Assembly: GCA_016187945.1 (NCBI GenBank)
Contig: JACPIT010000004.1
Location: 62,001 to 126,000, forward strand
Reading direction: 5' to 3'
Length of the DNA stretch: 64,000 bases
Source: Opitutia bacterium
GTDB taxonomy: Bacteria > Verrucomicrobiota > Verrucomicrobiia > Opitutales > Opitutaceae
Shown here: positions 10,263 to 62,834 of the stretch, piece by piece
Layout of the letters: each line of letters opens with the position of its first letter
Numbering within the stretch: the stretch's first letter is position 1
The notes under the pieces: model-generated
Database searches by the model: none
The model's input: only the letters and a program-made list of their open reading frames with translations
Told to the model about the DNA's origin: nothing
Position numbers and translations under genes: made by a program

Positions 10263-11408
10263 TCAGTTGATCACAAGTTCGGCCTGGAGGGCGCCGGAGC
10301 GTTTGAGCGATTGGAAAATGGCCATCATGTCGCGCGTGGAGACGCCGAGGGAATTCAGGGCGGCGGCGAGGCGCTCGACGGTGGGCGGCTCGTTGAGGAC
10401 GGTGAAGCCGCCCTTCGTCTCGTTCACGGCGGTCTGCGTGCTCTGCACGCCTTGCGTCGTGCCGCCGCTGAACGCGCCGGGCTGCGAGACGCCTTGGTTG
10501 TTCGTGACCGTGATCGTGAGCGCGCCGTGCGCGATCGCGACGTGCGAGATGCGCACCGTCGAGGTGGCGACGATGGTGCCGGTGCGCTCGTTGATGACGA
10601 TGCGCGCCATCGTGTCGGGCTGCACTTCGATGGTGCCGAGATCGGCGAGGAAGGCGACGTCGCGACTGCGATACTCGGCGGGGACGGCGACCTGCACGGT
10701 GGCGGCGTCGGTGGCGATCGCGCGCGACTCCGGCCAGCGGGTGTTGATCGCGTCGGCCATGCGCGCGGCGGAGGTGAAGTCGGGATTGTGCAGGAGGAGG
10801 CGGAGCTTCTGGTCCTGCACGAATTGCGCGGGAATCTCGCGCTCGACGATGGCGCCGTTGGAAATCGTGCCGACGGTCGGGTGATTTTTCTGCACCGTGG
10901 CGCCGCCCGCACCGCCGGCGCCGCCGAAGAAGCCGCCGATGGCGATCGGACCTTGCGCGACCGCGTAGACGCGGCCGTCGGCGCCGATCATGGGCGTCTG
11001 GAGCAGCACGCCGCCCTGGAGCGTCTTGGCATCGCCCATCGAGGAAACCGTCACGTCGATGCGCGCGCCGGGTTTCATGAACGCGGCGATGTCGGCGGTG
11101 ATCATGACGGCGGCGATGTTCTTCGACTTGATGTCGGTCGCGGCGATGGAGAGGCCGTAGCGCTGCAGCGTGTTCGAGACGGCGCGCAGGGTGGAGAGCG
11201 CGTTGCTGTCGCCGTCGCCGGCGAGGCCGACGACGAGGCCGTAGCCGACGAGCTGGTTGTCGCGACCGCCTTCGACGAGCGTGAGATCTTTCACGCGAGC
11301 GGCGGGGAGCGAAGGGCTGAAGAGCTGAAAAACTGAAAGGCTGAACGCAACCAGCAGCAGGTGGTGGCGGCGGCAAACGGGGAAAATTTTTTGCGTCCGT
11401 GCAATCAT
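10263..11408 (-). CDS. flgI: Flagellar P-ring protein with repeat-encoded signal peptide
   Basis: A 381-residue FlgI, which polymerises into the P-ring in the peptidoglycan layer. Conserved stretches include ARVKDLTLVEGGRDNQLVGY, GLVVGLAGDGDS, the Gly-rich loop FFGGAGGAGGA and the C-terminal LVEALN-like end LKRSGALQAELVIN. The signal peptide (about residues 1-36) is odd: residues 22-34 are encoded by one arm of an inverted repeat (11313-11346) whose partner arm lies just outside the gene at 11414-11446. The start codon therefore sits between the arms, and the hydrophobic core partly comes from the repeat. Confidence 0.95.
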   Translation of the reverse strand: MIARTQKIFPVCRRHHLLLVAFSLSVFQLFSPSLPAARVKDLTLVEGGRDNQLVGYGLVVGLAGDGDSNALSTLRAVSNTLQRYGLSIAATDIKSKNIAAVMITADIAAFMKPGARIDVTVSSMGDAKTLQGGVLLQTPMIGADGRVYAVAQGPIAIGGFFGGAGGAGGATVQKNHPTVGTISNGAIVEREIPAQFVQDQKLRLLLHNPDFTSAARMADAINTRWPESRAIATDAATVQVAVPAEYRSRDVAFLADLGTIEVQPDTMARIVINERTGTIVATSTVRISHVAIAHGALTITVTNNQGVSQPGAFSGGTTQGVQSTQTAVNETKGGFTVLNEPPTVERLAAALNSLGVSTRDMMAIFQSLKRSGALQAELVIN

Positions 11409-11446
11409 GTTTCGATCCTTCAGCTCTTCAGTCTTTCAGCCTTTTG
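11313..11446. repeat. Inverted pair of arms (CTGAAGAGCTGAAA type) straddling the flgI start
   Basis: Left arm 11313-11346 (AGGGCTGAAGAGCTGAAAAA and on) and right arm 11414-11446 (CTTCAGCTCTTCAGTCTTTC and on) are inverted copies. The right arm ends directly at the flgH stop codon; the left arm is translated as part of the FlgI signal peptide. Confidence 0.85.
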
Positions 11447-12112
11447 TCAGAACGGGCGGAGTTTTTCGTAGAGCTTCGACAGCCAGCCGCGCTTCTGCGC
11501 GTCGGTGAGCGCGCCTTCGGTGACGAACTCGACGCGGGCGTCGGCGATGTTGGACGAGAGAATGGTGTTGTCCGCGGCGATGTCGTCGGGACGCACGAGG
11601 CCGTGGAGGACGACGTATTGCGTCTCGCCGGAGAAGGTGACGACGCGCACGCCCTCGATCACGAGGTTGCCGTTCGGCATGACGTCGGTGACGAGCACGG
11701 CGGCGCGGCTGCTGAGCGACTGGTTGTTCACGGTCTGGCCGCCGCCGGAGTAGTCGCCCTTGCCGGTGATGTTGGTCGAGGGGAGCTCGCCGTTGTGGGT
11801 GCCGAGTTTGCTGGCGGCGACGGAGAAGATGAACTGGCCGACGGCGTCCTCGACGGCGGACTTGCGCGTGGAGGATTTGCTCTGGGTGTTCGTCGCCGCG
11901 ACGCTTTCGATGACGACGATCGTGAGGATGTCGCCCGAACGCGAGGCCTTGCGATCGGCGAACATGCCGCGCGGGCCGGCGTCGGCGGTCCACAACGAGG
12001 CGGCACGCGCGTCGGCGGCGCCGAGGGCGAGCAGCGCGATCAGGGCGGCGGCGGCGAGTCCGGACGGACCGGCGACGCGGAGATCAGAAGCGGACTTGAA
12101 CGCGGTTTTCAT
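11447..12112 (-). CDS. flgH: Flagellar L-ring protein
   Basis: A 221-residue FlgH. Core motifs are GDILTIVVIESVAATNTQS, AAVLVTDVMPNGNLVIEGVR and VRPDDIAADNTILSSNIADA, the last very characteristic. It forms the outer-membrane bushing for the rod. Unlike typical FlgH, the N-terminal signal region (residues 18-38, GLAAAALIALLALGAADARA) has no lipobox cysteine, so it seems to be a plain exported protein rather than a lipoprotein. Its start overlaps the end of flgA by 29 bases, suggesting translational coupling. A later start is not obvious because the signal peptide follows immediately. Confidence 0.95.
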   Translation of the reverse strand: MKTAFKSASDLRVAGPSGLAAAALIALLALGAADARAASLWTADAGPRGMFADRKASRSGDILTIVVIESVAATNTQSKSSTRKSAVEDAVGQFIFSVAASKLGTHNGELPSTNITGKGDYSGGGQTVNNQSLSSRAAVLVTDVMPNGNLVIEGVRVVTFSGETQYVVLHGLVRPDDIAADNTILSSNIADARVEFVTEGALTDAQKRGWLSKLYEKLRPF

Positions 12113-12830
12113 CGATGACGAACGCGGAAAAATCTTTCTTCGAATCGAGATTGCGGACGGTAACGACTTCGCCCTGCGCGCCGTTCTGCATGGCGAGGGC
12201 CTTCATGGTGACGACGAGCATGCCGTCGGCGGCGGAGACCTCGACCATCTCGCCCTTGCGGACGAGCGGGCGGCGGCCAATGTCGCGCCAGGTGAGGAGG
12301 CGACCGGCTTGGACGCCGCGGACGAAATTGAAAGAGCGGTCGCCGACGGCCGCGGGCAGCGCGTCGCGTTCGCGGAGCAGGTCGACGCGGCGCGTCTCGA
12401 GCTGCGCGGCGTCGAAGGGCGTGTTGTTCAGGAGCGGCTGGCGCGCGACCCAGGCGTCGCGCCAGAGCGCAGCGCGGAGCGTGAGCGTTGTTTCGCCGAA
12501 GGATTCGCCGTCGGCGATGACGCGGCAGCGCAGCAGCATCGACGACGCGACGACGGACGGATACTCGGTGATCAGCACCTGCCAGTCGCGCGCGACGCGG
12601 TCAGGCGACGACCACGGGCGAAGGAACTCAAGCTGGAGATCGCCTTCGAGGTTGAAGTGCGACGCGAGGTCGCGCGTGAGCGCAGCGGTGAAATTTTCCT
12701 GCGTGAACGGCGACGAGACAGCCGCGTCCGCGGCGGGGACCGGAGCGACGTTCGTCGGCGCGGGCGCGTCGGCGGAAAACACGACGGCGGCGGAAACGAG
12801 GAGCGCGAGGCTGGCGGCGAGGCGGTGCAT
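12084..12830 (-). CDS. flgA: Flagellar basal body P-ring formation protein FlgA
   Basis: A 248-residue periplasmic chaperone with an N-terminal signal peptide (LAASLALLVSAAVVFSADA) and a C-terminal SAF/ChapFlgA domain. The relevant stretches are GRLLTWRDIGRRPLVRKGEM, MKALAMQNGAQGEVVTVRN and NRVQVRF at the very end. FlgA assists FlgI polymerisation. The N-terminal half is more variable, as usual. It lies 5 bases after flgG and overlaps flgH by 29 bases within the co-directional cluster. Confidence 0.88.
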   Translation of the reverse strand: MHRLAASLALLVSAAVVFSADAPAPTNVAPVPAADAAVSSPFTQENFTAALTRDLASHFNLEGDLQLEFLRPWSSPDRVARDWQVLITEYPSVVASSMLLRCRVIADGESFGETTLTLRAALWRDAWVARQPLLNNTPFDAAQLETRRVDLLRERDALPAAVGDRSFNFVRGVQAGRLLTWRDIGRRPLVRKGEMVEVSAADGMLVVTMKALAMQNGAQGEVVTVRNLDSKKDFSAFVIDENRVQVRF

Positions 12831-12835
12831 GGCGA

Positions 12836-13615
12836 TCAGCGCTTCATGTTGGCCACATTTTGCAGCATCTCGTCGGACGACTGCACGGACTTGGAATTAA
12901 TTTCGTAGGCGCGCTGCGCGACGATGAGCGCGACCATTTCTTCGACGATGTTCACGTTCGAGGCCTCGATGTAGCCCTGGATCGTGCGGCCGAAGCCGTT
13001 TTCGCCGGGGTTGCCGGTCTCGGGCGTGCCGGAGGCGCCGGTCTCTTCGTAGAGGTTGCCGCCCATGGAGCGGAGGCCCGCGGGATTGGCGAAGCGCGTG
13101 AGCGTGAGGCGGAAATTCGTGGTGCCGGAGGAGCCTTGGACGGTGACCTGGCCGTCCTCCGAGATCGAAACGTTGGAGCCGGCGGGAATCGTCTGCATGC
13201 CGCTGAGGATCGGCATGCCGTCAATGGTGACGACCTGGCCTTGGGCGTTGAGCTTGAACGAGCCGTCGCGCGTGTAGCCGATCGTGCCATCGGGGCGCTG
13301 CACTTCAAAAAAGCCGTCGCCTTGGATCGCGACGTCGAGCTTCTCGCCGGTGTTGGTGAGCTGGCCCTGGGTGAAAACCTTCGAGGTGGCGGCGACGCGT
13401 GAGCCGTTGCCGACTTCGATGCCGGTGGGGACGAGATTGCCGCCGCCGGAGTCGGAGCCCGACGCGCGCGGCTTCTGGTAGAGGAGATCCTGGAACTCGA
13501 TCTTGCTGCGCTTGAAGCCCGGGGTGTTCACGTTCGCGAGGTTGTTCGCGATCGTGTTCAGGTTGAGCTGCTGAGCCTCCATGCCGGTGGCCGCGGAGTA
13601 GAGCGAGAGGTTCAT
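12836..13615 (-). CDS. flgG: Flagellar distal rod protein
   Basis: A 259-residue FlgG at the usual length (about 260). Landmarks are MNLSLYSAATGMEAQQLNLN, TIANNLANVNTPGFKRSKIE, the central LDVAIQGDGFFEVQRPDG and the C-terminal GYIEASNVNIVEEMVALI. It forms the distal rod that crosses the P- and L-rings. It follows flgF after a 133-base gap that carries a short GC palindrome (GGGGCCGGCCCGGCCCC, 13657-13673) but no recognisable gene. Confidence 0.97.
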   Translation of the reverse strand: MNLSLYSAATGMEAQQLNLNTIANNLANVNTPGFKRSKIEFQDLLYQKPRASGSDSGGGNLVPTGIEVGNGSRVAATSKVFTQGQLTNTGEKLDVAIQGDGFFEVQRPDGTIGYTRDGSFKLNAQGQVVTIDGMPILSGMQTIPAGSNVSISEDGQVTVQGSSGTTNFRLTLTRFANPAGLRSMGGNLYEETGASGTPETGNPGENGFGRTIQGYIEASNVNIVEEMVALIVAQRAYEINSKSVQSSDEMLQNVANMKR

Positions 13616-13748
13616 GGCGTCAGGTCAGCGTGGAAAATCCCCGCATCGCGACTGGGGCCGGCCCGGCCCCACACCGGGCGCGGCCATGCAGTCGTGATAG
13701 CGGTTGTCTATATGGGGAATTCATTGCGGCGGGGCGGCGCAGCGTGGA

Positions 13749-14501
13749 TCAGCCGAGGGCTTGGAGGGTTTTCTCCATCTGCTGGTCGGCGGTGGTGATG
13801 ATTTTCTGGTTGGCCTCGTAGGCGCGGCTGATGAGGACGAGGTCGACCATTTCGCGGAGCGGCTGAACGTTGCTCTGCTCGAGGTAACCCTGCATGAGCT
13901 CGGGTTCGTCGACCGTTTCCTTGCCGGCGTTGGGGCCGGCGACGAACATGCCGCCGGCGGTCGGGATCAGCGCGCTGGGGTTGGTGAATTTTTCGACCGC
14001 AAGTTTGCCGAGCGCGGTGCTGCCTTGGAAAATCGTGCCGTCGCGGTTGATCGTCACGGAGCCGCCGCCGGGGAGCATCGTGATCTGGTTGCCGCTGTCG
14101 GTGAGCACCGGCAGGCCGCCAGCGCCGACGAGCACGCGCTCAGGCGTCATGCGGAACTCGCCGCTGCGCGTGTAGAGTTTCTGGCCGCCGGGGCCGTCCA
14201 TCTCGAAGAAGCCGTCGCCCTGGATGGCGACGTCGAGTTCGCGGCGCGTCGGCTGCGTCTCGCCGGTCATGAAATTGATACCGGTGGTGACGTGGGTGAA
14301 GAGCACGGCGTGCTCGTTTTCGGGGCCGGCGTTCTTGGCGTCGGGGCGGATGTTCCACTTGCCGGCAACGTCGGTGGAGAACTGCACGGTGCGCTTCCGG
14401 TAGCCGGTCGTCTGCGCAGAGGTGATGTTCTGCGAAGTCGCATCCTGCCAGCGCTCGAGGGCCGACATGGAAGAGGCGCTTTGGTAGAGACCGATGTTCA
14501 T
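13749..14501 (-). CDS. flgF: Flagellar proximal rod protein FlgF
   Basis: A 250-residue rod protein of the FlgF/FlgG family, with N-terminal MNIGLYQSASSMSALERWQD, central LDVAIQGDGFFEMDGPGG and C-terminal GYLEQSNVQPLREMVDLVL. FlgF rather than FlgG is chosen because a better FlgG follows immediately and because the N-terminal Asn-rich patch is less canonical (ATSQNITSAQTTGYRKR). It is the first gene of the cluster; a sigma-54-like motif lies at 14516-14532, just upstream. Confidence 0.9.
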   Translation of the reverse strand: MNIGLYQSASSMSALERWQDATSQNITSAQTTGYRKRTVQFSTDVAGKWNIRPDAKNAGPENEHAVLFTHVTTGINFMTGETQPTRRELDVAIQGDGFFEMDGPGGQKLYTRSGEFRMTPERVLVGAGGLPVLTDSGNQITMLPGGGSVTINRDGTIFQGSTALGKLAVEKFTNPSALIPTAGGMFVAGPNAGKETVDEPELMQGYLEQSNVQPLREMVDLVLISRAYEANQKIITTADQQMEKTLQALG

Positions 14502-14515
14502 CCGGCCCCGCGAAA

Positions 14516-14532
14516 AGCAACGCCGGTGCCAA
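14516..14532 (-). promoter_or_regulatory. Candidate sigma-54 (RpoN) promoter before flgF
   Basis: Minus-strand sequence TTGGCACCGGCGTTGCT has the -24 (TTGGCAC) and -12 (TTGCT) elements with the exact five-base spacing of the RpoN consensus. Sigma-54 control of flagellar operons is common. The caveat is that predicted transcription would begin only about four bases before the flgF ATG, leaving no room for a ribosome site. Confidence 0.4.
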
Positions 14533-14737
14533 CGATTTTTGCCGCGGCATTAGCGGCGGCCGGCCAACGAATTAAAAAATTCTCCGCCCCGAGGCTATTT
14601 TTGCCGCCCGTCCCGCCCCACCCTTTTCAGGCAAACTTTGCCGCGCGCTGGAAAAAAGTGCCTGGGGACTAAAGCCGCCGCTCGTGTTCGGCGCGTGCGC
14701 GCATCCGATTGTAGAAATCGGCCAGACAGACCGACAC

Positions 14738-16167: not shown

Positions 16168-16264
16168 GTCGGATTTGAACCACGGCAATCGTCGAACGCA
16201 AACGCGCTCTTTCTCGAACGCAACCTAACCGGACCGGTGAAGAACGACCTTCGGTTCGCAGGCC

Positions 16265-17443: not shown

Positions 17444-17445
17444 GG

Positions 17446-25220: not shown

Positions 25221-25241
25221 CCCAAACCCGTGCACCGTGAA

Positions 25242-25368: not shown

Positions 25369-26652
25369 CTACCGCACCTGACCTTCGCCGCGAATGACGT
25401 ATTTGTAGGTCGTCAGCTCCTCGAGCCCCATCGGACCGCGGGCGTGGAGGCGGTCCGTGCTGATGCCGATTTCCGCGCCGAAGCCGAACTCGCCGCCGTC
25501 GGTGAAACGCGTGCTGGCGTTCCAGTAAACCGTCGCGCTGTCGACGGCGTTGAGAAACTTCTCCGCCGCCGCCGCATCGGCCGTCACGATCGCGTCGCTG
25601 TGATGCGAGCCGTGCGCGTCGATGTGCGCGATGGCCGCGTCGAGGCTATCGACGACCTTCACGGCCAGGATCAGGTCGAGAAATTCGGTGCGGAAGTCCT
25701 GCGGCTGCGCCGCCGAGATGAGAGTTGAGTGTTGAGAGTTGAGAGACGAACCCAGCGCGGCGTGGGCCGCAGCGTCCATGCGGAGTTGCACGCCGCGCTC
25801 GAGCAATGCGCGACCGGCGCTCGCGAGGAATTTCTCGGCCACGGCGCGGTGCACGAGGAGCGTCTCGATGGCGTTGCACACGCCCGGGCGCTGGCACTTC
25901 GCGTTGAGCGCGATCTTCTCCGCCATCGCAAGATCGGCCGCGGCGTCGACGTAGAGCGCGCAGATGCCGTCGTAGTGCTTGATGACCGGCACGCGCGCGT
26001 TCGCGACGACGGCTTCGATCAGGCCGCGCCCGCCGCGCGGGATGATCAGGTTCACGAATTCGTCGAGCGCCGCGAGGTGCTTCACCGCGTCGCGGTCGGC
26101 GACGGGGACGAGTTGCACGGCGTCGCCCGGCAGCCCGCTCGCGGCGAGCCCGCGCGCGAGCGCGGCGGCGACGGCAAGATTGGTGCGCAGCGATTCGGAG
26201 CCGCCGCGCAAGATGACGGCGTTGCCGGCCTTCAGGCAGAGCGACGCGGCGTCGCTGGTGACGTTCGGGCGCGACTCGTAGACGATGCCGATGACGCCGA
26301 TCGGCACGGAGACTTTGCTGAAGCGCACGCCGTTGGCGTGCGACCACTCGCGTTGCACGCGGCCGACCGGATCGGGCAACTCCGCCACGGTGCGCACGCC
26401 GTCGGCCATCGCGGCGAGGCGTTTTTCATCGAGCCGCAGGCGGTCGAGCATCGCTTTCGCGAGTCCGGTTTTTTCGGCCGCAGCGAGGTCGTCGGCGTTG
26501 GCGGAGAGAATTTCCGCGCGCGCGGCCAGCATCGCATCCGCCATTGCGCGGAGCGCGCGGTCCTTGTCAGCACGCGAGGCGAGCGCGAGCTGCGTCGCCG
26601 CGGCGCGAGCGCGCCGGCCCATTTCGCGGATGGTCTGTTGGAGATCAGACAT
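25369..26652 (-). CDS. proA: Gamma-glutamyl phosphate reductase
   Basis: A 427-residue aldehyde-dehydrogenase-fold enzyme reducing glutamyl-5-phosphate to the semialdehyde with NADPH, step two of proline synthesis. Landmarks are VGVIG-like VPIGVIGIVYESRPNVT, AGNAVILRGGSE, PVIKHYDGICALYVD and the nucleophile Cys in NAKCQRPGVCNAIETLLVH. Start at the ATG at 26652 (SDLQQTIREMGRRARAA). Oddity: residues about 301-312 (SLNSQHSTLISA) are encoded by a CTCAAC-type repeat arm (25721-25746), in a region that is a variable loop in other ProA. The TAG stop may also be repeat-derived. Confidence 0.96.
   Translation of the reverse strand: MSDLQQTIREMGRRARAAATQLALASRADKDRALRAMADAMLAARAEILSANADDLAAAEKTGLAKAMLDRLRLDEKRLAAMADGVRTVAELPDPVGRVQREWSHANGVRFSKVSVPIGVIGIVYESRPNVTSDAASLCLKAGNAVILRGGSESLRTNLAVAAALARGLAASGLPGDAVQLVPVADRDAVKHLAALDEFVNLIIPRGGRGLIEAVVANARVPVIKHYDGICALYVDAAADLAMAEKIALNAKCQRPGVCNAIETLLVHRAVAEKFLASAGRALLERGVQLRMDAAAHAALGSSLNSQHSTLISAAQPQDFRTEFLDLILAVKVVDSLDAAIAHIDAHGSHHSDAIVTADAAAAEKFLNAVDSATVYWNASTRFTDGGEFGFGAEIGISTDRLHARGPMGLEELTTYKYVIRGEGQVR
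25721..25746. repeat. Single quasi-repetitive arm (GAGAGTTGAGTGTTGAG type) inside proA
   Basis: AGAGTTGAGTGTTGAGAGTT and on is embedded in frame in proA. The same type forms an inverted pair in the gap at 42379-42460. Confidence 0.8.
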
Positions 26653-30865: not shown

Positions 30866-32713
30866 CTACCGCTGAAACCGCCGCGCCAGCTCGCCGCGAC
30901 TCAACTCGAAATGCGTCGGGCGGCCCGTCGGGCTCGTGTGCGGCTGCGAACACGCGAACAATTGCGCGACCAGCGCGAGCGCCTCCGTGTCCGAAATCGT
31001 CTCCGGCAGGCGCACCGCCCGTTGCGCGGCGAGGCGCGCGAACTCGTCTTCGGCGAGGCGCGGATTCTTTTCATCGAGCCGGCCGTCGCGCATCAACGCG
31101 AGCACGTCGCGCAGGAATCGCTCAGCGCCCTCCGGCTCAAGCCACGTCGGCACGGACTCGATGCGGAAGAAATTGCGCCCGAACTCCGCGACCTCGACAC
31201 CGTGGCGCGCGAGCCACTTCAGCTTGTCGAGCAGCATCGCGCTCGCGACCGGGTCGAGTTCCACCGGCACGGCGAACAGCAGGCGCTGACTCTCGACCTT
31301 GCCGTCGGCGAACTGCGCGGTGAGCCGCTCGAACCACACGCGCTCGTGCCCCGCGCGGCGATCGACGACCACGACGCCCGCCGGCGACTCGAAGAGTGCG
31401 AAGTCGCCGTGCGCCGTGCCGAGGAAACGCCAGCCCAGCAGCCGCGACGCGGCGGCGGGATTTGGGATTTTCGATCCTCGATTTTGGATTGGAGGCGGCG
31501 CGAGGTGGCCCGCGACCTCCGGGCGCGGGGCGAACGTCGGCACCGGCACGCTCGGCGCACTTGGAGGCGGGGCCATCAGCCCCGCGGGCGGCGACGTGCG
31601 CTGCGGAACTTGCACCTCGCCGGGCTGATGGCCCGGCCTCCACTCGGGAAATGGCGCGGCGATACTCGGCGCGACCGTCGGCGGAAGCAGCACGGGCGCC
31701 GCGTCCACCACCGGCGCGCCCATGCCGAACTCGCGCAGGCATTGCAGCACCGTGCGCACGACGAAGCCCCTCACCTGCCCTTCGCTGCGGAAACGCACCT
31801 CGCGCTTCGCCGGATGCACGTTCACGTCGACCGCCGCCGGGCTCATTTCGAGAAACAGCACCGCGACCGGATAGCGGCCCTTGGGCAACGACGTCGTGTA
31901 GGATTCGATCAGCGCGTAATTGAGCGTGCGGCTGTCGACCGGCCGGTGGTTCACGAACGTGATCATCTCGTGCCGCGCCGCGCGCGAGACGCCGGGTTTG
32001 CCGATCAGGCCGGTGAGGCGCAGGCCTTCTTCGGTCGCGTCGACGGCGAGCGAGTCGGTCGTGAACTGCCGGCCGAAGATTTCCGCGACGCGCTCTTCGA
32101 GCGTCGTGCACGCGGGCGATTGGAACAGCACGCGCCCGTCCTCGATCAGCGTGAACGCCGTCTGCGGACACGCCAGCGCGTAGAGTCGCACCGTCTGGAT
32201 GATGTGCGCCGACTCGGTGGCGTCGCTCTTGAGGAACTTCCGGCGCGCGGGCACGGCGTTAAAGAGGTGCGTGACCGTCATGCGCGTGCCGGGCGCGATG
32301 CCGCACTCGCGCACGTGCACGAGCTTGCCGCCGTTCACGAGCACCTCGGTGCCGGCGGGCGCGTCGGCGGGACGCGTCTGCAGCTCGAACTTCGACACGC
32401 TCGCGATCGACGGCAGCGCTTCGCCGCGGAAACCGAACGAGTGCAACGTATCGAGGTCGACCGTCTCGACGATCTTGCTCGTGGCGTGGCGCTCGAGCGA
32501 GAGCAGCGCGTCGTCCTTCGACATGCCGCAGCCGTTGTCCTCGACGCGCAGGTAACTGCGTCCGCCGTGGCGGAACTCGACTTCGATGCGCGTCGCGCCG
32601 GCATCGAGGGAGTTCTCGACGAGTTCCTTGATCACCGCCGCCGGCCGCTCAATGACCTCGCCCGCCGCGATCTGATTCGCGACGCGATCGGAGAGGACGC
32701 GGATGCGGGGCAT
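30866..32713 (-). CDS. mutL: DNA mismatch repair protein MutL with degenerate endonuclease motif
   Basis: A 615-residue MutL. The GHKL ATPase (residues 1-330) has ELVENSLDAGATRIEVEF, RVEDNGCGMS, GFRGEALPSIASVS and KREVRFRSEGQV. A Pro-rich linker (about 340-425) follows, then the C-terminal dimerisation domain. In nuclease-active MutL the C-terminal domain carries DQHAxxE, ACxxA and CPHGRP. Here these read VDRRAGHER, AAQRAV and SPTGRPT, so metal ligands appear lost. The linker contains two in-frame repeats, giving residues about 358-384 and 408-419. I start at the ATG at 32713; a GTG eleven codons earlier is less likely. Confidence 0.95.
   Translation of the reverse strand: MPRIRVLSDRVANQIAAGEVIERPAAVIKELVENSLDAGATRIEVEFRHGGRSYLRVEDNGCGMSKDDALLSLERHATSKIVETVDLDTLHSFGFRGEALPSIASVSKFELQTRPADAPAGTEVLVNGGKLVHVRECGIAPGTRMTVTHLFNAVPARRKFLKSDATESAHIIQTVRLYALACPQTAFTLIEDGRVLFQSPACTTLEERVAEIFGRQFTTDSLAVDATEEGLRLTGLIGKPGVSRAARHEMITFVNHRPVDSRTLNYALIESYTTSLPKGRYPVAVLFLEMSPAAVDVNVHPAKREVRFRSEGQVRGFVVRTVLQCLREFGMGAPVVDAAPVLLPPTVAPSIAAPFPEWRPGHQPGEVQVPQRTSPPAGLMAPPPSAPSVPVPTFAPRPEVAGHLAPPPIQNRGSKIPNPAAASRLLGWRFLGTAHGDFALFESPAGVVVVDRRAGHERVWFERLTAQFADGKVESQRLLFAVPVELDPVASAMLLDKLKWLARHGVEVAEFGRNFFRIESVPTWLEPEGAERFLRDVLALMRDGRLDEKNPRLAEDEFARLAAQRAVRLPETISDTEALALVAQLFACSQPHTSPTGRPTHFELSRGELARRFQR
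31458..31492. repeat. Single arm of the TCGATT repeat type inside mutL
   Basis: GGATTTGGGATTTTCGATCC and on matches the arms at 9287-9415. On the coding strand it yields residues PIQNRGSKIPNP in the MutL linker. Confidence 0.85.
31563..31642. repeat. REP-like inverted repeat, family E copy 1, inside mutL
   Basis: Arms GGAGGCGGGGCCATCAGCCC (31563 on) and GGGCTGATGGCCCGGCCTCC (31622-31641) form an 80-base element wholly within the mutL reading frame. Its sister copy at 34457-34531 is intergenic. Confidence 0.9.
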
Positions 32714-36552: not shown

Positions 36553-36646
36553 GGGCGGTTCGACACAAAAGGCGGAGACGCGGCAAAAGACGAGGCTGTG
36601 TTGGCGGGGGTGCGGTGGGAGCGCGCGGTGCGAGTGCGAGCGGGAG

Positions 36647-36788
36647 GTAGGGCCGGTCTTCGACCGGCCGAAGCGGAGTCGCAGCAGAAAAGATAACCAA
36701 ATGAGCCAGCACCGACCGACGCCCGGGGTTCTTCGGGGGTGCGATCCGTTTCGCGACTCGGTTTAGGCCGGTCGGAGACCGGCCCTAC
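36647..36788. repeat. REP-like inverted repeat, family K copy 2, supplying the ymdB stop
   Basis: Left arm GTAGGGCCGGTCTTCGACCG (36647 on) and right arm CGGTCGGAGACCGGCCCTAC (36769-36788). The right border read on the minus strand, GTAG, contains the TAG stop of the YmdB-type gene. Confidence 0.88.
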
Positions 36789-37558
36789 TTCACGCTTAGC
36801 CACTCGATTTTTTCGGCGCGGCCAGCGGCGTTGAATTCGACCAGCGTGCCGGAGAGGCGCACGTCGCCGCTCGCGACGTCGAAGCGGCGCGGCATGCCGT
36901 CGCGGAAACGCGCGATCACCGGCTCGATCTCGCGGCCCAGCACGGAGTGATGCGGGCCCGTCATGCCGACGTCGGCTTGAAAGGCGGTCTGCTTCGTCAA
37001 CAGCGAGCAATCGGCCGTGGCGACGTGCGTGTGCGTGCCGAGCACGGCGGTGGCGCGGCCGTCGAGGAACCAGCCCATCGCCTGCTTCTCCGACGTCGCT
37101 TCGGCGTGGATCTCGACGAGCGCGCCGTCGAATTTGCCGGCGTTCTCCGCGAGGAGTTTTTCTGCGGTATCGAACGGGCAGTCGACTTTCGGACCCATGA
37201 AATTCCGGCCGAGCACGGTGAACACGAGCAGACGAAACCCGTTTTTCTCGAACACGAGGTGCGTGCGGCCCGGGCATGCGGCGGGGAGATTCGCGGGGCG
37301 GCACACGCGGTCGAACTGCGCGATCTCGCGCTCCCAGCCTTTCTGGTCCCAGACGTGGTCGCCGAGCGTGAGCGCGTCGCAACCGGCGTCGAGGAGCGAC
37401 TTCGCGAGCGTGCCGGTGATGCCGGCGCCGGCGGCGCAGTTCTCGGCGTTGGCGATGACGAAATCGATCGCGCGCTCGGCGCGGAGGCGCGGCACGTGCG
37501 CGGCAACGGCGTCGCGTCCGGGGCGGCCGACGATGTCGCCGATGAAGAGGAGTTTCAT
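36785..37558 (-). CDS. ymdB: YmdB-type metallophosphoesterase (TIGR00282 family)
   Basis: A 257-residue two-metal phosphoesterase. Motifs are FIGDIVGRPGRDAV (Asp8), VIANAENCAAGAGIT (Glu/Asn ligands), LGDHVWDQK (His), VEIHAEATSEKQAMG and VLGTHTHVATAD (paired His). Bacillus YmdB acts on cyclic 2',3'/3',5'-AMP and affects RNA turnover and biofilm switching; the physiological substrate here is not known. It ends in a repeat-derived TAG. Its start is 111 bases downstream of the tolB stop on the same strand. Confidence 0.92.
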   Translation of the reverse strand: MKLLFIGDIVGRPGRDAVAAHVPRLRAERAIDFVIANAENCAAGAGITGTLAKSLLDAGCDALTLGDHVWDQKGWEREIAQFDRVCRPANLPAACPGRTHLVFEKNGFRLLVFTVLGRNFMGPKVDCPFDTAEKLLAENAGKFDGALVEIHAEATSEKQAMGWFLDGRATAVLGTHTHVATADCSLLTKQTAFQADVGMTGPHHSVLGREIEPVIARFRDGMPRRFDVASGDVRLSGTLVEFNAAGRAEKIEWLSVK

Positions 37559-37669: not shown

Positions 37670-38848
37670 TCACGGCGCGAGATACGCGGCGCCCCAGGCG
37701 TTGCCGAGAGCGGTCGGGCTGAGGCGTTTGGCGTTGCCGGTTTCCGTATCGAGGAGGAAGAGCGCGCGATCGGTTGCGGTGCGGAACGTGCAGACAACGT
37801 GACGGCCGTCTGCGCACCAGACGGGCTCGACGGCGTCGTAGGGCGCTTTCGAGGACTGCTTCGCGGTGCGCGCGGCGAAATCGAACACGGCGATCTGGTA
37901 GCCTTTGCCGATGCCGGCGGTGAAGACGATCTTGTTGGGGTCGGCGCGGCTCCAGTCGGGCTCGGCACAGTAACGGGAGATGTTGGTCGAGAGGCGCGAC
38001 ATCGCGCCGCCGCTCGCGGACATCACGTAGAGTTGCGGGCCGCCGGCGGCGTCGGAGGTGAAGACGAGGCGCGCGCCGTCGGGCGACCAGCACGGCGAGG
38101 CTTCGACGGATTGGTTGGTGGTGAGGCGGCGGATCTGGCGGCCTTGGGCGTTGCCGACGTAGATCTCGGGGTTGCCTTCGCCGGAGAGCACCATCGCGAC
38201 GCGCGAGCCGTCGGGCGAGAAACGGCCGCCGCTGTTGGTGCCTTTGAAACTGACGAGGGTGTCGAGCGTGCGCGTGCGGAGATTCAGCGTGTAGATGTCG
38301 GGGAAACCAGTGCGGTAGCTCGTGAAGATGATGCGATCACCGCTCGGCGACCAGCGCGGACCGATGATGGTTTTGCCCTGCACCGGATAGCTCTGCACGT
38401 CGCCGAAGAAAAGATCGCCGGTCATGATCGTCTGTTGACCGCCGCGATCGGTGACGAAGGCGAGCTTGCCGGCGAAGAAGCCGGGCAGGCCGCTCGTTTT
38501 CGTTACGGCGAGGTCGGCGGCTTTGAGCAGGGCGTTGCGCGTGCTGGAGCCGCTGACGGTTTGCGTGAAGATCGCGTTGCCGCGCTGCGAGACGGTGACC
38601 GTGACTTGGTTCGCGCCGGCGCTGTCGAATTTCAGCGCGAAGGCGCCGCCGCTGCCGACGACGCGGTATTTGCCGTGGACGTCGAACGCGCGACGCGCGA
38701 GGGCCTGCAACTCGGGGTTGCTCGACGAGATCGAGACGGCGAAGGCGGTCGTGTCGTTTTTGACCGTGATTTCGCCGATGTTGACCGGTTGCGCGAAAAT
38801 CGGCGTCGCCAGCGCGAGCGCGGCGAGGAGGGCGAAAGTTTTCTGCAT
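37670..38848 (-). CDS. tolB: TolB-like periplasmic beta-propeller
   Basis: A 392-residue exported protein. The signal peptide spans residues 1-19 (MQKTFALLAALALATPIFA). A TolB N-terminal domain follows (ALARRAFDVHGKYRVVG). A six-blade propeller then carries repeated WSPDG/FSPDG blades (RWSPSGDRIIFTSYRTGFPD, RFSPDGSRVAMVLSG, CWSPDGARLVFTSDAAGG). TolB belongs to the Tol-Pal outer-membrane constriction system. No tol/pal partners are adjacent, so the name rests on architecture. The ATG at 38848 is fixed by the signal peptide. It is divergent from mrp; a TAAAAT box in the shared 119-base gap may serve tolB. Confidence 0.88.
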   Translation of the reverse strand: MQKTFALLAALALATPIFAQPVNIGEITVKNDTTAFAVSISSSNPELQALARRAFDVHGKYRVVGSGGAFALKFDSAGANQVTVTVSQRGNAIFTQTVSGSSTRNALLKAADLAVTKTSGLPGFFAGKLAFVTDRGGQQTIMTGDLFFGDVQSYPVQGKTIIGPRWSPSGDRIIFTSYRTGFPDIYTLNLRTRTLDTLVSFKGTNSGGRFSPDGSRVAMVLSGEGNPEIYVGNAQGRQIRRLTTNQSVEASPCWSPDGARLVFTSDAAGGPQLYVMSASGGAMSRLSTNISRYCAEPDWSRADPNKIVFTAGIGKGYQIAVFDFAARTAKQSSKAPYDAVEPVWCADGRHVVCTFRTATDRALFLLDTETGNAKRLSPTALGNAWGAAYLAP

Positions 38849-42363: not shown

Positions 42364-42378
42364 CGGTTAGACGCTACA

Positions 42379-42460
42379 GTTGAGAGCTGAGAGTTGAGGA
42401 TTGAGAGACAGGTTCCTTGCGAAAGCGGCTGAGCGGGCTCTCAACTCTCAGCTCTCAACT
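42379..42460. repeat. Inverted pair of quasi-repetitive arms (GAGAGTTGAGG type)
   Basis: Left arm 42379-42408 (AGTTGAGAGCTGAGAGTTGA and on) and right arm 42437-42460 (CTCTCAACTCTCAGCTCTCA and on) fill the gap between nuoA and the cyclase gene. The unit matches the arm inside proA. Confidence 0.85.
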
Positions 42461-42471
42461 CGAGACTCGGC

Positions 42472-55491: not shown

Positions 55492-55586
55492 GCGCGTGTC
55501 CCTCCGCCGGAACTTGCGCCACTTGACCGCAGCCGTGCGCCGCCCCGTAGCAACCGAGGTGACGAGGCTGTTTTTCACGAAACAAA

Positions 55587-55661: not shown

Positions 55662-55678
55662 GACGCTGGGATGTGTCC

Positions 55679-55703
55679 AGCGCGGGCTAAAGCACCGCGC
55701 GAC
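55679..55703. repeat. Single REP-like arm, family S
   Basis: AGCGCGGGCTAAAGCACCGC and on matches arms at 4687-4712 and 25198-25218. Confidence 0.7.
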
Positions 55704-55711
55704 TCACCACC

Positions 55712-57078: not shown

Positions 57079-57108
57079 TTTTCCGCCGCGACGCGTTTTG
57101 TTCCCGTT

Positions 57109-59058: not shown

Positions 59059-59073
59059 TGGCCCGCATCGCAA

Positions 59074-59100
59074 GGTAGGGCGAGTCGTCCCGACGAGCCG
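59074..59100. repeat. Half copy of REP-like family B
   Basis: GGTAGGGCGAGTCGTCCCGA followed by CGAGCCG, 16 bases past the mrdA stop. Confidence 0.82.
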
Positions 59101-59114
59101 CGCCACGGCGCAAT

Positions 59115-59208
59115 GTAGCGGAACTCGTCAGAAGTTCGCACACCGCTCGACGGCGCATTCGTCAGAATTTCGCACGCTGACTCGCGAAAGCCTCACGGCT
59201 TCCGCTAC
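59115..59208. repeat. REP-like inverted repeat between mrdA and the transglutaminase gene
   Basis: Borders GTAGCGGAACTCGTCAGAAG and CCTCACGGCTTCCGCTAC with internal CGTCAGAA copies. Together with the previous half copy it fills the convergent gap. Confidence 0.72.
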
Positions 59209-59233
59209 GACGCACCAGTTCGCGGTCCGCATC

Positions 59234-61489
59234 CTACCCGCGTGCCACCTTCCGCGCCCGCCGGAAAACCCCGCGCGGCTCCGGCCACGTCTCGCGCCGC
59301 CCGTAGCGCAGACGCTGCAACTCGTCTACGACGATTCCCCATTCGACTTCGCGTCCCCTCGTTTGCACGCTTGGTGCTTGGTGCTTGGTGCTTCGCATCT
59401 CGCGCAGCCGCGCGAGATGCGCTCCCGCCTCGCGTCGCACCGGATCGAACGCCGCCGGATTCCGCCAAAGCTGCCAGCGCATCCACAGCCACCGCGCCGC
59501 GCGCACGCCGCCGACGAGCACCGCCGACGCCAACGCCATCCCCGCCAACGCCCGCGCCACCCGCGCCCAATTCCACGGGCCCGCGAGCCACGCCTTCACG
59601 CGCTTCGCCCATTCCTCGAGTCGCGCGCGCAGCACGTCGCCCGTGCTCGTCGTCGCGCTCTTCACGCTGTCGAGCAGCTCGACTTGCTGCCGCGAATCGA
59701 AATTCACCACGCGCCGATACCACAGCACGCGCAAGCTATCGAGCCGCGCCGTCCAACTGTTGTCGCGCTCCCGCTCCGCCGCTTGCGCGACCTCGCTCGC
59801 GCGCTCGCCCACCGCGCCGCCGGGCGTCGGATCGACGCGCGTCCAAGCGTCGCGTCCGTTGAAAACCTCCACCCACGCGTGCGCATCCGAGTTGCGCACC
59901 ATCAGGTAATCCTCGAAGCCGTTCAGCGCGCCGCCGTGGAAACCGGCGACGACCCGCGCCGGATGTCCCGCCGCGCGGCACACCACCGCGAGCGCCGACG
60001 CGAAGTGCTCGCAGAAACCCGGTTCGTTCGAGTCGAGCCAGCGCACGATGTCGTCGCCGCTCCCGCGCGGAATGCGCACCGAGAGCGAATACGCGTGCCG
60101 CTTCCGCAGCCACGCCGTCGCGCGCTCGGCGAATTGCTCCGGCTGCAACGTCGCGCCGCCCGTCACCTCGGCAACGACCCGGTGCAACACCGCCTCGTTG
60201 TCCACGCCGGCCGGTCCGGCGAGCGTCGTCCGCGCGTCGTAGCGCCGCTCGCGCCGCATGGCCTCGTCGCCGCGCACCCAGCCGCTCAGCAACGCCGCAA
60301 ATCCCGCGTCGCGCACGATGGGCGCGAGCGAAATGCCTTCGATCTGGAACGCCGTCATCGTCGCCGGGTCGTTTTGCAGCGCGACGAGCCGGTTGGGCAG
60401 ACTCACCTGCACCGCCGCGATGTCGCGCAGCCGCAACACCGCGAACGATCCCGGCAACGGCAGGTAGCGACTCACGCCCGGCTCGACGTAAACCGTCCAC
60501 AGGCCGGGCACCATCTGCCCCGCCGTCCACGCGCCGCCGCCCGGCACCACGCGTTTCACGCTCTGACTCGCGCGGAGATGCGCCTTCATCCAACTCGAGA
60601 CGCGGAAGCCCTGCGGCGTGTATTCGTCGAGCGTGACGAGCCGCCAGTAGAGATCGGCGTTCGGCTTCGCGCCGCTCGCGAGATCGACGCGCAGCGCCAC
60701 ACTGTTGTCCTGCACCAGTTCGCTCACGTCGCCGAAACGCACCGTCTCCGAGAAGCCGGTCCGGCTCTTGCGCGTGATGTATTTGTCCAAAAAGAAACTG
60801 CTCCCGATCTCGAAGCGCGGGATGAGCAGAAACAGCAACGCCGACACGCCGACCACGCCCAGGAACAACGCGCCGCCGAAGCCGAGCAGCCGCCAGTCGG
60901 CCACCGCGCGCAGCTTCGCGAAAAACGGCCGCCACGCCCCGCGCGCCCACGCCGGCACTTCGCGCATCTCCTCCGGCCGCATCACGCGCGGACCGGTGTC
61001 GACCATGTCGATGAGCGTCACGACGAACAAAAACCCCAGCGCGCACGCCGTGAACACCAGCAGCAACGCCGCGAACTCCATCGCCACCGTCAACACGCCC
61101 GCCACGACGATCAGGAACAAACCGAGCACGATGAGCTGCAAATCCTCGCGCTTCCGCCGATACGCCACCGCTCGATAAAGCACGAGCAGCACCGCCAGCC
61201 GGATGAGCACCGGCAGCGTTTCGCTGCTGAAATAGAAATCCGCCGCGACCGCCGCGATGATCGCCGGCACCGCCAGCCGCCAGACGAGCGCCGGCACACG
61301 CGCGGGGAGTTGCGGCCAGACCACCGCCGCACCGATCACCACGCTCGCGACCGCGACGAGCCCGAGCGCCTCCACGTCGAGGAAGAACACGGTCCACAAC
61401 GACACGAGCGCGAGCACGCCGCCGAGCAGCCACTTGAGCCGCCGCAACTCGTCGAGACTAAGCTGAGGCCGTGGGGACGCCATCGACAT
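59234..61489 (-). CDS. Transglutaminase-like membrane protein (DUF3488/TgpA type)
   Basis: A 751-residue protein. N-terminal membrane helices (about 15-175) of the DUF3488 type include LGLVAVASVVIGAAVVWP and LQLIVLGLFLIVVAGVLT. A long periplasmic part carries the papain-like transglutaminase triad: Cys in EPGFCEHFASALAVVCR (near 490), His in NSDAHAWVEVF (near 537), Asp in TRVDPTPGG (near 552). One more membrane helix lies near 645 (VARALAGMALASAVLVGGVR), and a DUF4129-like tail ends the protein. A tandem AGCACCA repeat (59369-59393) encodes residues about 699-707. Start at the ATG at 61489, overlapping the DUF58 gene by 32 bases. Confidence 0.88.
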   Translation of the reverse strand: MSMASPRPQLSLDELRRLKWLLGGVLALVSLWTVFFLDVEALGLVAVASVVIGAAVVWPQLPARVPALVWRLAVPAIIAAVAADFYFSSETLPVLIRLAVLLVLYRAVAYRRKREDLQLIVLGLFLIVVAGVLTVAMEFAALLLVFTACALGFLFVVTLIDMVDTGPRVMRPEEMREVPAWARGAWRPFFAKLRAVADWRLLGFGGALFLGVVGVSALLFLLIPRFEIGSSFFLDKYITRKSRTGFSETVRFGDVSELVQDNSVALRVDLASGAKPNADLYWRLVTLDEYTPQGFRVSSWMKAHLRASQSVKRVVPGGGAWTAGQMVPGLWTVYVEPGVSRYLPLPGSFAVLRLRDIAAVQVSLPNRLVALQNDPATMTAFQIEGISLAPIVRDAGFAALLSGWVRGDEAMRRERRYDARTTLAGPAGVDNEAVLHRVVAEVTGGATLQPEQFAERATAWLRKRHAYSLSVRIPRGSGDDIVRWLDSNEPGFCEHFASALAVVCRAAGHPARVVAGFHGGALNGFEDYLMVRNSDAHAWVEVFNGRDAWTRVDPTPGGAVGERASEVAQAAERERDNSWTARLDSLRVLWYRRVVNFDSRQQVELLDSVKSATTSTGDVLRARLEEWAKRVKAWLAGPWNWARVARALAGMALASAVLVGGVRAARWLWMRWQLWRNPAAFDPVRREAGAHLARLREMRSTKHQAPSVQTRGREVEWGIVVDELQRLRYGRRETWPEPRGVFRRARKVARG
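59369..59393. repeat. Tandem GCTTGGT repeat inside the transglutaminase gene
   Basis: Three head-to-tail copies of GCTTGGT, in frame, read as STKHQAPS on the coding strand. The same unit builds the inverted-arm element at 62861-62991. Confidence 0.85.
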
Positions 61490-62834
61490 AGGCCGTGACA
61501 CCGCGCGCTCCTTCGGGCGCGAACGTGATGAGGTTGCGAGAAACATCCCGGCGGTCACCGCCCGCCCGGTAGGGCGAGTCGTCCCCGACGAGCCGCTCCG
61601 TCGCGCGCGGCTCGTCGGGACGACTCGCCCTACCCGCTGCTAATGGATGTAGGGTGGGTTCTCCCGACCCCGCCGTGTCGCGCAGGTCAACCGACGTCCG
61701 CGGCAGGGTCGGGAGACCCCGCCCTACAGGCTCGGCGACCGCCAGCAAATCCAACACCGCCTCGACATCGCGCAACCGCCGCGTGTCGACCCACTGGCCG
61801 TTCACGCTCACGCCGCGCAGGCGTCCGTCCGCAAACAAATCCTCCGCGAGCGTCGCCGCGAAACGACACAACGTCTCGAACTGCTCCGCCCGCGTCCACA
61901 GTTCCGCCGCTGCCTCCACGCACAACGCGTAGCCCTCCGGGCTCTCCGCCGCGAACTGCCGCACCATCAATTGCCCGAGCCGCGCGCTGGCTTTCCAGTG
62001 CACGAGCCGGTGCGAGTCGCCCGATTGGTAGCGCCTCAACGCCAGCAAATCCTCGCCCGCTCCCGCGCGCACGGAACGCACGCCTTCCGCGCCACCGGTC
62101 GCAGCGGCGGCGCCGCGCCACTGGTATTCGATCTGCGCCGGCCAGACCAGCACGGCGCGCCGCAGCCCGGTGCCCACGCTCTTGCGCAGAAAGCCGAACG
62201 GAAAAAACGAGCCGATCGCCGCGAGTTCGAGCACGTGTTCGCCACGCTGCTCCGGCTTGTGCACCCACTCGAGCGTCAAGTCGGCGCCCGGCTCGATCCG
62301 CTCGCGCAGGAAGACGCGTCCGCGCGTCACGGCCTTCTCCGCCGCGGCGAGGATTTCGCGCACGCGCTCCTTCGAGAGATCGGGGCCGGGATCGGATTCC
62401 TTCGCGCGCGGATGTGTCGCGAGGTCGAACCACAGCCCGTAGGTCGGCAGCCAGCGCTTCGTGTTCTTCACCTCCACGGTCACGATCGTCTCGTGTCCCG
62501 CGCGCCACGCCGCCGTCGGCCGCAGCCGCCAGCACAGTCCCATGAAGTTGAACCACGACATCAGCCCGCTGAGCAACAGGCAGGCGAGCAACAGGGAGAG
62601 CGTGATGAACAGGATGTTGCTCGCGGTGTTGTAGGCGGCGGTGCCGATGCCCATCGCGAGGCCGATCAGAAAAATGCCCGGCAGCGTCACGCCGATGCGG
62701 TGACGTTTCGGCGGGAAGACCAGCGACCAGACGAGCGTCTGCCACGAAAAGACGCGCCGTGCACGATCGGGCGCGCCGGGGCCGGACCAATCGGCGGGGC
62801 TCGGGGACGAGATGACCGCAGCGTGGGCTTTCAT
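61458..62834 (-). CDS. DUF58 protein carrying two in-frame REP-like elements
   Basis: A 458-residue DUF58 protein. Two membrane helices lie at about 50-90 (GVTLPGIFLIGLAMGIGTAA, ILFITLSLLLACLLLSGLM). The cytoplasmic/periplasmic domain has the DUF58 signature QSGDSHRLVHWKASARLG with GQLMVRQF. The end is unusual: after EAVLDLLAVAEPV, about 55 residues are encoded by two palindromic elements (61568-61634 and 61649-61728). The terminal NLITFAPEGARGVTAYVDG then looks like a native C-terminus. The gene lies between moxR and the transglutaminase gene, a standard trio. I start at the ATG at 62834. Confidence 0.87.
   Translation of the reverse strand: MKAHAAVISSPSPADWSGPGAPDRARRVFSWQTLVWSLVFPPKRHRIGVTLPGIFLIGLAMGIGTAAYNTASNILFITLSLLLACLLLSGLMSWFNFMGLCWRLRPTAAWRAGHETIVTVEVKNTKRWLPTYGLWFDLATHPRAKESDPGPDLSKERVREILAAAEKAVTRGRVFLRERIEPGADLTLEWVHKPEQRGEHVLELAAIGSFFPFGFLRKSVGTGLRRAVLVWPAQIEYQWRGAAAATGGAEGVRSVRAGAGEDLLALRRYQSGDSHRLVHWKASARLGQLMVRQFAAESPEGYALCVEAAAELWTRAEQFETLCRFAATLAEDLFADGRLRGVSVNGQWVDTRRLRDVEAVLDLLAVAEPVGRGLPTLPRTSVDLRDTAGSGEPTLHPLAAGRASRPDEPRATERLVGDDSPYRAGGDRRDVSRNLITFAPEGARGVTAYVDGVPTASA
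61568..61634. repeat. REP-like inverted repeat, family B full copy, inside the DUF58 gene
   Basis: Arms GGTAGGGCGAGTCGTCCCCG (61568 on) and CGTCGGGACGACTCGCCCTA (61612-61631). It lies wholly within the reading frame, giving residues like ASRPDEPRATERLVGDDSPY. Confidence 0.93.
61649..61728. repeat. REP-like inverted repeat, family C, inside the DUF58 gene
   Basis: Arms GTAGGGTGGGTTCTCCCGAC (61649 on) and GGGTCGGGAGACCCCGCCCT (61706-61725), in frame, giving LPTLPRTSVDLRDTAGSGEP. Confidence 0.93.

Follow-up and report, generated by a model that had tools for sequence, protein, structure and literature searches.

Seven repeat stretches lie within five protein genes of the 64,000-nucleotide window analyzed here (positions 62,001 to 126,000 of contig JACPIT010000004.1 from an Opitutia bacterium), and we consider it probable (about 0.75) that they are copies left in genes by two independent repeat systems: repetitive extragenic palindromes (REPs) with their REP-associated tyrosine transposases (RAYTs), and elements in which a small gene for a PF05635 protein, here called IVP, is flanked by arms made of 7-nt repeats. 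An earlier note on this DNA had reported all seven, and each was found where it had been placed, in an open reading frame (ORF); according to Pfam, the host genes belong to DUF58, TgpA_N/Transglut_core, MutL, the Aldedh fold (ProA), and FlgI. The interpretation given there, that dispersed repeats entered genes and persist in loops, linkers, and tails in the manner of Rickettsia palindromic elements, holds up, whereas the single system that it proposed was not borne out, because two unrelated kinds of repeats are involved (REP palindromes and heptamer arrays). One common element for all repeats was also considered and rejected, since the REPs have constant stems and occur at RAYT genes whereas the arrays have a period of 7 and occur at IVP genes.

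Three of the seven stretches are palindromes. In the DUF58 gene, a family A REP (61568..61634, peptide GRASRPDEPRATERLVGDDSPYR) and a family B REP (61649..61728, GTAGGGTGGGTTCTCCCGACCC...) are read in frame, and a family C palindrome of the GGAG type lies in the mutL linker (31562..31642); the DUF58 pair and this large mutL repeat are GTAG/GGAG-type REP palindromes of the described REP/RAYT kind. The repeats in flgI, proA, and the transglutaminase gene and the small repeat in mutL are degenerate tandem arrays of 7-nt units (8-nt units in flgI), all on the minus strand. They comprise solo heptamer arrays of three unit sequences, or dialects, namely GATTYTS in the mutL linker (31458..31492, peptide PIQNRGSKIPN), TTGAGAG in proA (25713..25751, peptide SLNSQHSTLIS), and CTTGGTG in the C-terminal tail of the transglutaminase (59363..59403), together with an octamer array of the CTGAAAGG type in the FlgI signal peptide (11313..11346).

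The best match of each stretch outside core genes in 400 kb of the same contig (C8) was compared with those of 100 coding segments for each of three lengths, which were random draws from coding cores and may themselves contain arrays. Six of the seven stretches exceeded the 99th percentile of these controls: the first DUF58 repeat (69.8 versus 47.3 bits), the large mutL repeat (55.4 versus 47.3), the small mutL repeat (47.3 versus 33.7), the flgI array (41.0 versus 33.7), the proA array (39.2 versus 32.0, tying the control maximum of 39.2) and, marginally and under the control maximum, the transglutaminase array (32.8 versus 32.0). The second DUF58 repeat had no good match outside core genes within the 400 kb (27.4 bits); copies at 77-79% are found elsewhere in the genome (C9:1166258, C6:327967, and C9:276612).

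REP palindromes and RAYT genes

The REPs end in GGTAG in families A and E, in TGTAG in family B, and in GGAG in family C, and among the family D copies those at 25236 and 27989 have TGTAG and that at 4728 has TGCAG on one side. Searching the 400 kb revealed 59 REP places (query elements included) versus 0-1 with shuffled queries; nine of the 59 are inside aligned coding cores, three of these nine being the window elements used as queries. A search of the whole genome produced 84 match rows, with both strands of palindromes counted. The genome also has eight Y1_Tnp matches. At locus L196 (contig C11), family A REPs with identical inner spacers flank a Y1_Tnp gene on either side, and such genes are likewise bracketed by family D REPs at L194 and by family E arms at L193; unlike for families A, D, and E, no Y1_Tnp gene flanked by cognate REPs was found for families B and C.

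Heptamer arrays and IVP genes

Arrays were scanned by period, a hit requiring at least 17 of 21 matches. Period 7 gave 27 hits in the 400 kb versus a shuffle mean of 1, with 4, 2, 2, 0, and 0 hits for periods 5, 8, 10, 11, and 13 and 11 and 10 hits for periods 6 and 9. In coding cores (175 cores, 192.5 kb, six of 181 genes with fewer than 60 aligned residues being left out), which were built on stop-to-stop ORFs (as were those used for the REP and IVP-arm counts) so that some in-gene places may precede the real start of the gene, six period-7 hits were detected versus a mean of 0.05 in 20 codon shuffles. Periods 8, 10, 11, and 13 had no hits in these cores, periods 5 and 14 had one each versus 0, and period 6 had six versus 1.15; lowering the threshold to 16 of 21 yielded 12 period-7 hits, three of which look like plain GC-rich repeats. 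Several dialects coexist in this genome (GATTYTS, TTGAGAG, CCAAGCT, CTTGGTG, CTACTCG, and others), and the same dialect recurs at many unlinked places. The GATTYTS pattern occurs in 18 of 57 relative genomes and has 99 matches in the window's genome (171 for a shorter pattern; overlapping matches within one array are counted separately) versus 0 for a reversed control.

On the same contig as the window, a pair of such arrays encloses a PF05635 ORF (C8:214973-215389; 49.2 bits, cut-off 33.8), and this element is missing at the syntenic place in a same-genus genome, G007. The stop codon of its IVP gene overlaps the start of the next gene (ATGA, C8:214972-214975), and because of this overlap translation may be coupled across the element. 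The genome has seven PF05635 matches, six over the cut-off and none in the window. The domain is present in 39 of 57 relatives and 0 of 14 control genomes, two phage records contain IVP matches, and the only PDB relative found for the IVP protein is 2rld, which has five chains. Of 51 loci of relatives, 35 have a period-7 array on the left of the domain and 23 on the right, no more than ~150 nt away, compared with 8 of 297 control windows; for control genes, the left and right counts are 1 and 0 of 19 for Y1_Tnp (0 of 6 for the genome's own Y1_Tnp genes) and 2 and 2 of 26 for mutL, with 0 of 18 for proA and 0 of 17 for flgI. We further assembled 111 elements from 110 loci using a narrow search profile of 94 domains that was then iterated (the set contains one weak element, L423, and one locus entered twice, L373, and leaves out L480, a duplicate of L377). 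Left and right flanks are complementary beyond the 95th percentile of 1,872 mismatched flank pairs in 88 of them and beyond the 99th in 64. The arm period is mostly 7, less often 6 or 8, and the letters vary among lineages. In a separate case (L354), a nearly perfect (TTCTGTC)n array of ~19 units adjoins an IVP gene and runs up to the contig end.

The same anatomy was observed on plasmids. All 25 plasmid records with an IVP match were analyzed (19 from Cyanobacteriota, two each from Chloroflexota and Bacteroidota, and one each from Spirochaetota and Bacillota). Flanks are complementary in 23 of the 25 (of the Bacteroidota records, one fails and one is marginal), and period 7 is found in 22 left and 23 right flanks, versus 0 of 25 and 1 of 50 outer windows. 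In Planktothrix the arms are of the AATCCCC type. Of 23 plasmid IVP genes with two annotated neighbors, 21 lie between mutually codirectional genes, 17 of them in the sense of IVP (counted by hand from an incomplete gene table). In two plasmid copies, the IVP gene has cas2 on one side and cas1 on the other.

At short distances, the letters of the arms track the lineage of the IVP protein. Similar arms were seen in 7 of 10 pairs of elements whose proteins are at least 80% identical (these closest pairs may represent orthologous copies), in 25 of 96 at 60-80%, in 5 of 234 at 45-60%, and in 7 of 3,483 below 45%. A single clade (support 0.988) of nine tips, two of which are second entries of the same copy, unites most GATTYTS elements, which come from three genera. 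Arms of the genome's own IVP elements match 41 places in the 400 kb (two being the element's own arms) versus 0-1 with shuffled arms. An inverted partner is present within 600 nt at 25 of 34 places outside core genes but at only one of seven in genes, so that the in-gene copies are mostly solo arms. One of the listed in-gene matches (C8:69828) is probably intergenic; the ORF that contains it overlaps flagellar genes of the opposite strand. The proA array is 94% identical over 32 nt to an arm of the genome's own TTGAGAG element C9:1297754 (E 1e-8), and the small mutL array is 84% identical over 32 nt to an arm of its GATTYTS element C8:215035 (E 1.8e-4). Links of the flgI octamer are limited to another array between genes and to an intergenic inverted pair in G002, the latter judged by eye.

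Hairpins of the same dialects that lack the ORF are also present in the window. A GATTYTS hairpin (left arm 9287..9324, plus strand; right arm 9378..9415, minus strand) separates two flagellar genes, which we take to be FlgK-like and FlgN-like. The left (62860..62903, plus strand) and right (62947..62990, minus strand) arms of a CCAAGCT hairpin are 84% identical over 45 nt and 94% identical over 50 nt (E 1e-16), respectively, to arms of the genome's own IVP element C15:181401, whose CCAAGCT arms match further ORF-less hairpins as well. A TTGAGAG hairpin at 42376..42469 (arms 42376-42406 and 42438-42469) is conserved in G007, and a pair of places at 7740..7852 matches the arms of the own IVP element C10:127110 (CAAACGC dialect).

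Repeat-bearing genes and orthologous sites in relatives

The earlier note had proposed an alignment of orthologues as a check, and the inserts, judged by eye, are indeed absent, different, or partial in most same-genus rows. In the window's species, REP-A and REP-B stand just ahead of the conserved DUF58 C-terminus. A REP-A-like peptide occupies the same place in four of ten other same-genus rows (G001, G003, G005, and G012), G007 has a degenerate REP-B only and no REP-A, and the remaining five have neither. The peptide of the large mutL repeat is in no other orthologue row, and the flgI array is in no same-genus row; in another genus, the FlgI of G017 has a similar-looking FSVFSFSAF stretch at the protein level. 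The transglutaminase array is absent in G007, where another heptamer-like insert occupies that spot, and other species have different heptamer-like tails in the transglutaminase and different heptamer-like stretches in the mutL linker. The proA array is common to G007 only; the other ten same-genus rows are just 3-15 nt shorter, implying that the array partly replaced native sequence. At the protein level, MutL linkers from several genera (L018, L031, L032, and L036) contain peptides of the IENRESKIEN- or PNPNTQIPN-type that look heptamer-encoded, and this linker may be a recurrent landing place for arrays.

Presence and absence were observed at two sites between genes. At the site of the C8 element, five of 13 same-genus genomes have an element and eight have none; the flanks almost abut in G012, and the element in G008 is of another dialect, with a protein outside the GATTYTS clade. 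At the site of the hairpin 9287-9415, five of 16 loci have an inverted pair (arms identified by eye), which is of GATTYTS in G000 (the window's genome) and G015, of the TAAGC type in G007 and G008, and of an octamer type in G002. Intergenic distances are 15-24 nt in G001, G003, and G010 and 41-78 nt at six other loci, one of which (G016) has a single array-like stretch, and two of the 16 loci were not resolvable. Taken together, these alignments suggest repeated insertion or replacement at preferred gene junctions. In contrast, the hairpin 42376-42469 is kept in G007.

Proposed mechanism

We propose that the GTAG/GGAG REPs are spread by RAYT (Y1) transposases and that in-frame copies in tolerant segments, such as those of DUF58 and mutL, would persist. 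The IVP element consists of a small gene for a PF05635 four-helix bundle bounded by two inverted degenerate 7-nt arrays; from one element lineage to another the letters of these arrays change, but their period and the mutual complementarity of the arms do not. The ORF-less hairpins with the same dialects could then be derivatives resembling miniature inverted-repeat transposable elements (MITEs), and solo arms within genes could have given rise to the peptides of proA and mutL and also, judging solely by likeness of kind, to those of the transglutaminase and FlgI. In-gene arms might be partial insertions or decayed elements. The IVP element may move as a unit, and its protein might bind the hairpin of the arms as RNA or single-stranded DNA and help copying into new sites, preferring gene junctions in operons. 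One arm may be renewed from the other, as is hinted by the arms of one element agreeing in dialect but not unit by unit. PF05635 has been described as resembling Avd, which is essential for retrohoming (PMC10053308), and by this analogy an RNA or single-strand intermediate in the movement of IVP elements is plausible.

It is also possible, although we would give it slightly less than even odds, that a widespread class of mobile elements has PF05635 genes as its cores and ends that are set by a 7-nt period and mutual complementarity rather than by a sequence. An IVP pentamer would then read the periodic hairpin, the arms would be kept alike by copying one from the other, and ORF-less and solo-arm derivatives would seed genomes and proteins; the 23S rRNA intervening sequences (IVSs) and at least part of the cyanobacterial heptamer repeats would belong to this class.

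Alternative explanations

The hairpins might instead be selected regulatory RNA structures (terminators, attenuators, or mRNA processing sites), with IVP being a non-mobile regulator that binds them. The location of 21 of 23 plasmid IVP genes between codirectional genes, the excision of the Coxiella IVS by RNase III (PMC4990558), and the conservation of the hairpin 42376-42469 in G007 are consistent with this explanation, but the presence of hairpins at orthologous sites is patchy, with short gaps in other species, different dialects are found at one site, cas2 and cas1 flank two of the copies, and solo arms occur in genes, all of which make it unlikely. Replication slippage, which would make the arrays simple-sequence repeats located in genes and beside IVP genes only incidentally, appears more improbable still. 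The arrays are degenerate and of low complexity, heptameric repeats are reported to be over-represented in bacteria (PMC4692102), and periods 6 and 9 (11 and 10 hits) also lie above shuffled sequence in the 400 kb; however, period 7 leads over periods 5, 8, 10, 11, and 13 (27 hits versus 4, 2, 2, 0, and 0), copies of one dialect are scattered over many unlinked places, the two arms of an element are inverted and match each other, and arrays are rare beside RAYT or other control genes. As a sole explanation, slippage is disfavored by the matched inverted arms in the elements of relatives and on plasmids.

Two further explanations seem very improbable. RAYT transposases could be a single machinery that moves both REPs and heptamer hairpins, considering that both are hairpins coexisting in this genome and that one U32 peptidase gene contains a REP-A piece, a TTGAGAG array, and a weak GATT-like piece; nevertheless, period-7 arrays accompany most IVP genes but hardly any Y1_Tnp genes (1 left and 0 right of 19; own 0 of 6), and the constant stems and GTAG-type end of REPs are not seen in arrays. 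The in-gene arrays could also be ancestral coding sequence that is repetitive by chance, as some of them lie in naturally variable linkers and tails and similar MutL linker peptides exist in several relatives. This explanation is difficult to reconcile with the absence of the arrays, or the presence of another dialect, in most orthologue rows, with matches to intergenic copies mostly above those of coding controls, and with the excess over codon shuffles.

We favor two independent systems, REP/RAYT and IVP elements, as the source of the in-gene repeats, and several observations weigh against this view. Movement itself was not observed: the earlier note had called the repeats mobile, which is supported by presence and absence at orthologous sites, but no transposition was seen, and the alignment of proA shows what appears to be replacement of native sequence rather than clean insertion. 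No clear target-site duplication was found when empty and filled states were compared by eye at one site, and PF05635 proteins are not known to act as nucleases, transposases, or polymerases. Flanks of 23 of the 111 elements are not above the 95th percentile, and the element counts are not independent because they include orthologous copies among relatives and near-identical plasmid records. The plasmid sample includes 19 records from Cyanobacteria; Spirochaetota and Bacillota are represented by one record each and Bacteroidota by one passing record of two. The overall correlation between proteins and arms is weak (Mantel rho 0.115, p 0.002), and the element L439 has a GATT-like dialect yet lies outside the main GATTYTS clade. 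Within the window's genome, comparison with own IVP arms yielded no match for the transglutaminase array and did not tie the flgI octamer to an IVP element. In the G007 stretch, period 7 had only seven hits versus 12 for period 6. Among the 118 named stretches listed as matches to the GATTYTS pattern alone, two hold an IVP domain (~210 nt from the array in L277 and 2.4 kb away in L282), implying that most GATTYTS arrays stand alone and that some may be of other origin; on this count, we rejected the idea of an IVP gene at each heptamer array.

Additional repeats and neighboring genes

Other REPs in the window include an intergenic family D palindrome (4735..4810), an intergenic inverted pair of family E (36639..36796), and a family A half-element on the plus strand (59074..59103) that is 100% complementary to 61605-61634. 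Another REP-A half-element (2671-2702) lies in the aligned core of a minus-strand ORF (~78-2783), perhaps in a 5' region that is not coding. Elsewhere, a Mur-ligase (Mpl-like) gene (L196:987-2519) contains an in-frame REP-A (GRASRPDEPKESPRAGDGSSGG), and the left REP of the adjoining RAYT unit supplies the coding sequence for its C-terminus. The U32 peptidase gene mentioned above (C8:203673-206369, plus strand) was perhaps hit three times; it is 91% identical over 44 nt to the C9:1297754 arm, and its GATT-like piece is 16 nt long (E 0.007).

Two arrays of the CACAAAGG/CACAGAGG type (C8:359003-359162 and 37793-38120) seem by eye to be nested within CCAAGCT hairpins, which suggests insertion of one element into another. 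Over equal length, period-7 arrays are much scarcer in G007 than in the window's genome (10 versus 39 at 16 or more of 21 matches), which would fit an expansion of the arrays in the window's genome. On plasmids, IVP genes of nine records (L481, L482, L484, L486, L487, L494, L498, L503, and L505) adjoin genes annotated as DrmD, MmeI or PglX, DUF1156 and Swt1, a helicase with an N-6 methylase, cas1/cas2, and HsdS and HsdR.

Known relatives and implications

The species O. terrae, which is named below, presumably belongs to the genus Opitutus. The REP half of these observations is known in kind and adds one case with RAYTs bracketed by cognate REPs, which is unsurprising alone. As in GTAG REPs and REPtrons (PMC3733652, PMC2817692), palindromes with GTAG ends are present in many copies, and a Y1 transposase gene is flanked by the same REPs. 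In-frame intragenic GTAG REPs, translated and tolerated in loops and linkers as they are here, were published in 2013, with O. terrae being the richest in such cases, and their possible neutrality in linkers or loops has already been proposed (PMC3733652). Differences from those REPs include the GGAG end of family C, and DUF58 and mutL are outside the target genes named in the available main text of that paper, its supplementary gene list aside. Rickettsia palindromic elements are likewise palindromes translated in frame in unrelated genes (as described in PMC3733652), but the likeness is by effect only, and the REPs here differ in having RAYTs bracketed by cognate REPs. The earlier note had put its system forward as a candidate for an undescribed one; the REP half is published (PMC3733652), and the PF05635/IVP element had not been recognized in that note. 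The heptamer-armed IVP element with its in-gene solo arms is the interesting and less-known part.

The nearest known kind of element is the 23S rRNA IVS, in which an S23p/PF05635 ORF is also accompanied by inverted repeats; in Coxiella, tandem heptamers lie just before the S23p start codon, and earlier ideas of mobility have been cited (PMC4990558). The C8 element differs in lying between two conserved ORFs, and the annotated neighbors of the plasmid copies are protein genes; moreover, heptamer arms are found here on both sides, with dialects varying among lineages, together with ORF-less hairpins and solo arms. Considering the same protein, the inverted repeats, and the Coxiella heptamers, the IVS is a known kind of which the element described here is a wider variant outside rRNA. 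No link between PF05635 and inverted heptamer arms was found in the titles and abstract openings listed for open-licence PubMed Central articles, the nearest being the Coxiella IVS paper. With its heptamer arms and its location outside rRNA, the element may represent a new class of mobile element. Like MITEs, the ORF-less hairpins are short non-autonomous inverted-repeat elements related to a coding parent. They differ from MITEs in having no transposase of a known class, and from both MITEs and insertion sequences in having no fixed terminal sequence, the ends being alike in period and self-complementarity (arms are shared by only 7 of 3,483 pairs below 45% identity), although elements of close relatives do share arms.

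Cyanobacterial short tandemly repeated repetitive sequences are degenerate 7-nt repeats of the same sort. Similar degenerate 7-nt arrays, mostly intergenic, are the heptameric repeats of Xanthomonas and Nostoc, some of which are intragenic (PMC4692102), and the TAACTGA repeats (PMC4679880). For the heptamer repeats of Xanthomonas, Nostoc, and Beggiatoaceae, the available parts of these two reports describe no partner gene and no link to IVP, and the available text of the TAACTGA paper contains neither "S23" nor "four helix". PF05635 is described as resembling Avd of diversity-generating retroelements (PMC10053308), but the annotated neighbors of the 25 plasmid copies of IVP include no reverse transcriptase, no genome-wide search for one having been made.

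If the explanation proposed here is true, it would provide an origin for the degenerate heptamer repeats of several phyla, and the puzzling 23S rRNA intervening sequences would join a larger family in which the accompanying small protein becomes predictable. Several plasmid copies in or beside operons annotated as DISARM, CRISPR-Cas, or restriction-modification genes would make an effect on those operons testable. It would also open a route from the ends of mobile elements to protein sequence, in linkers, tails, and perhaps a signal peptide.

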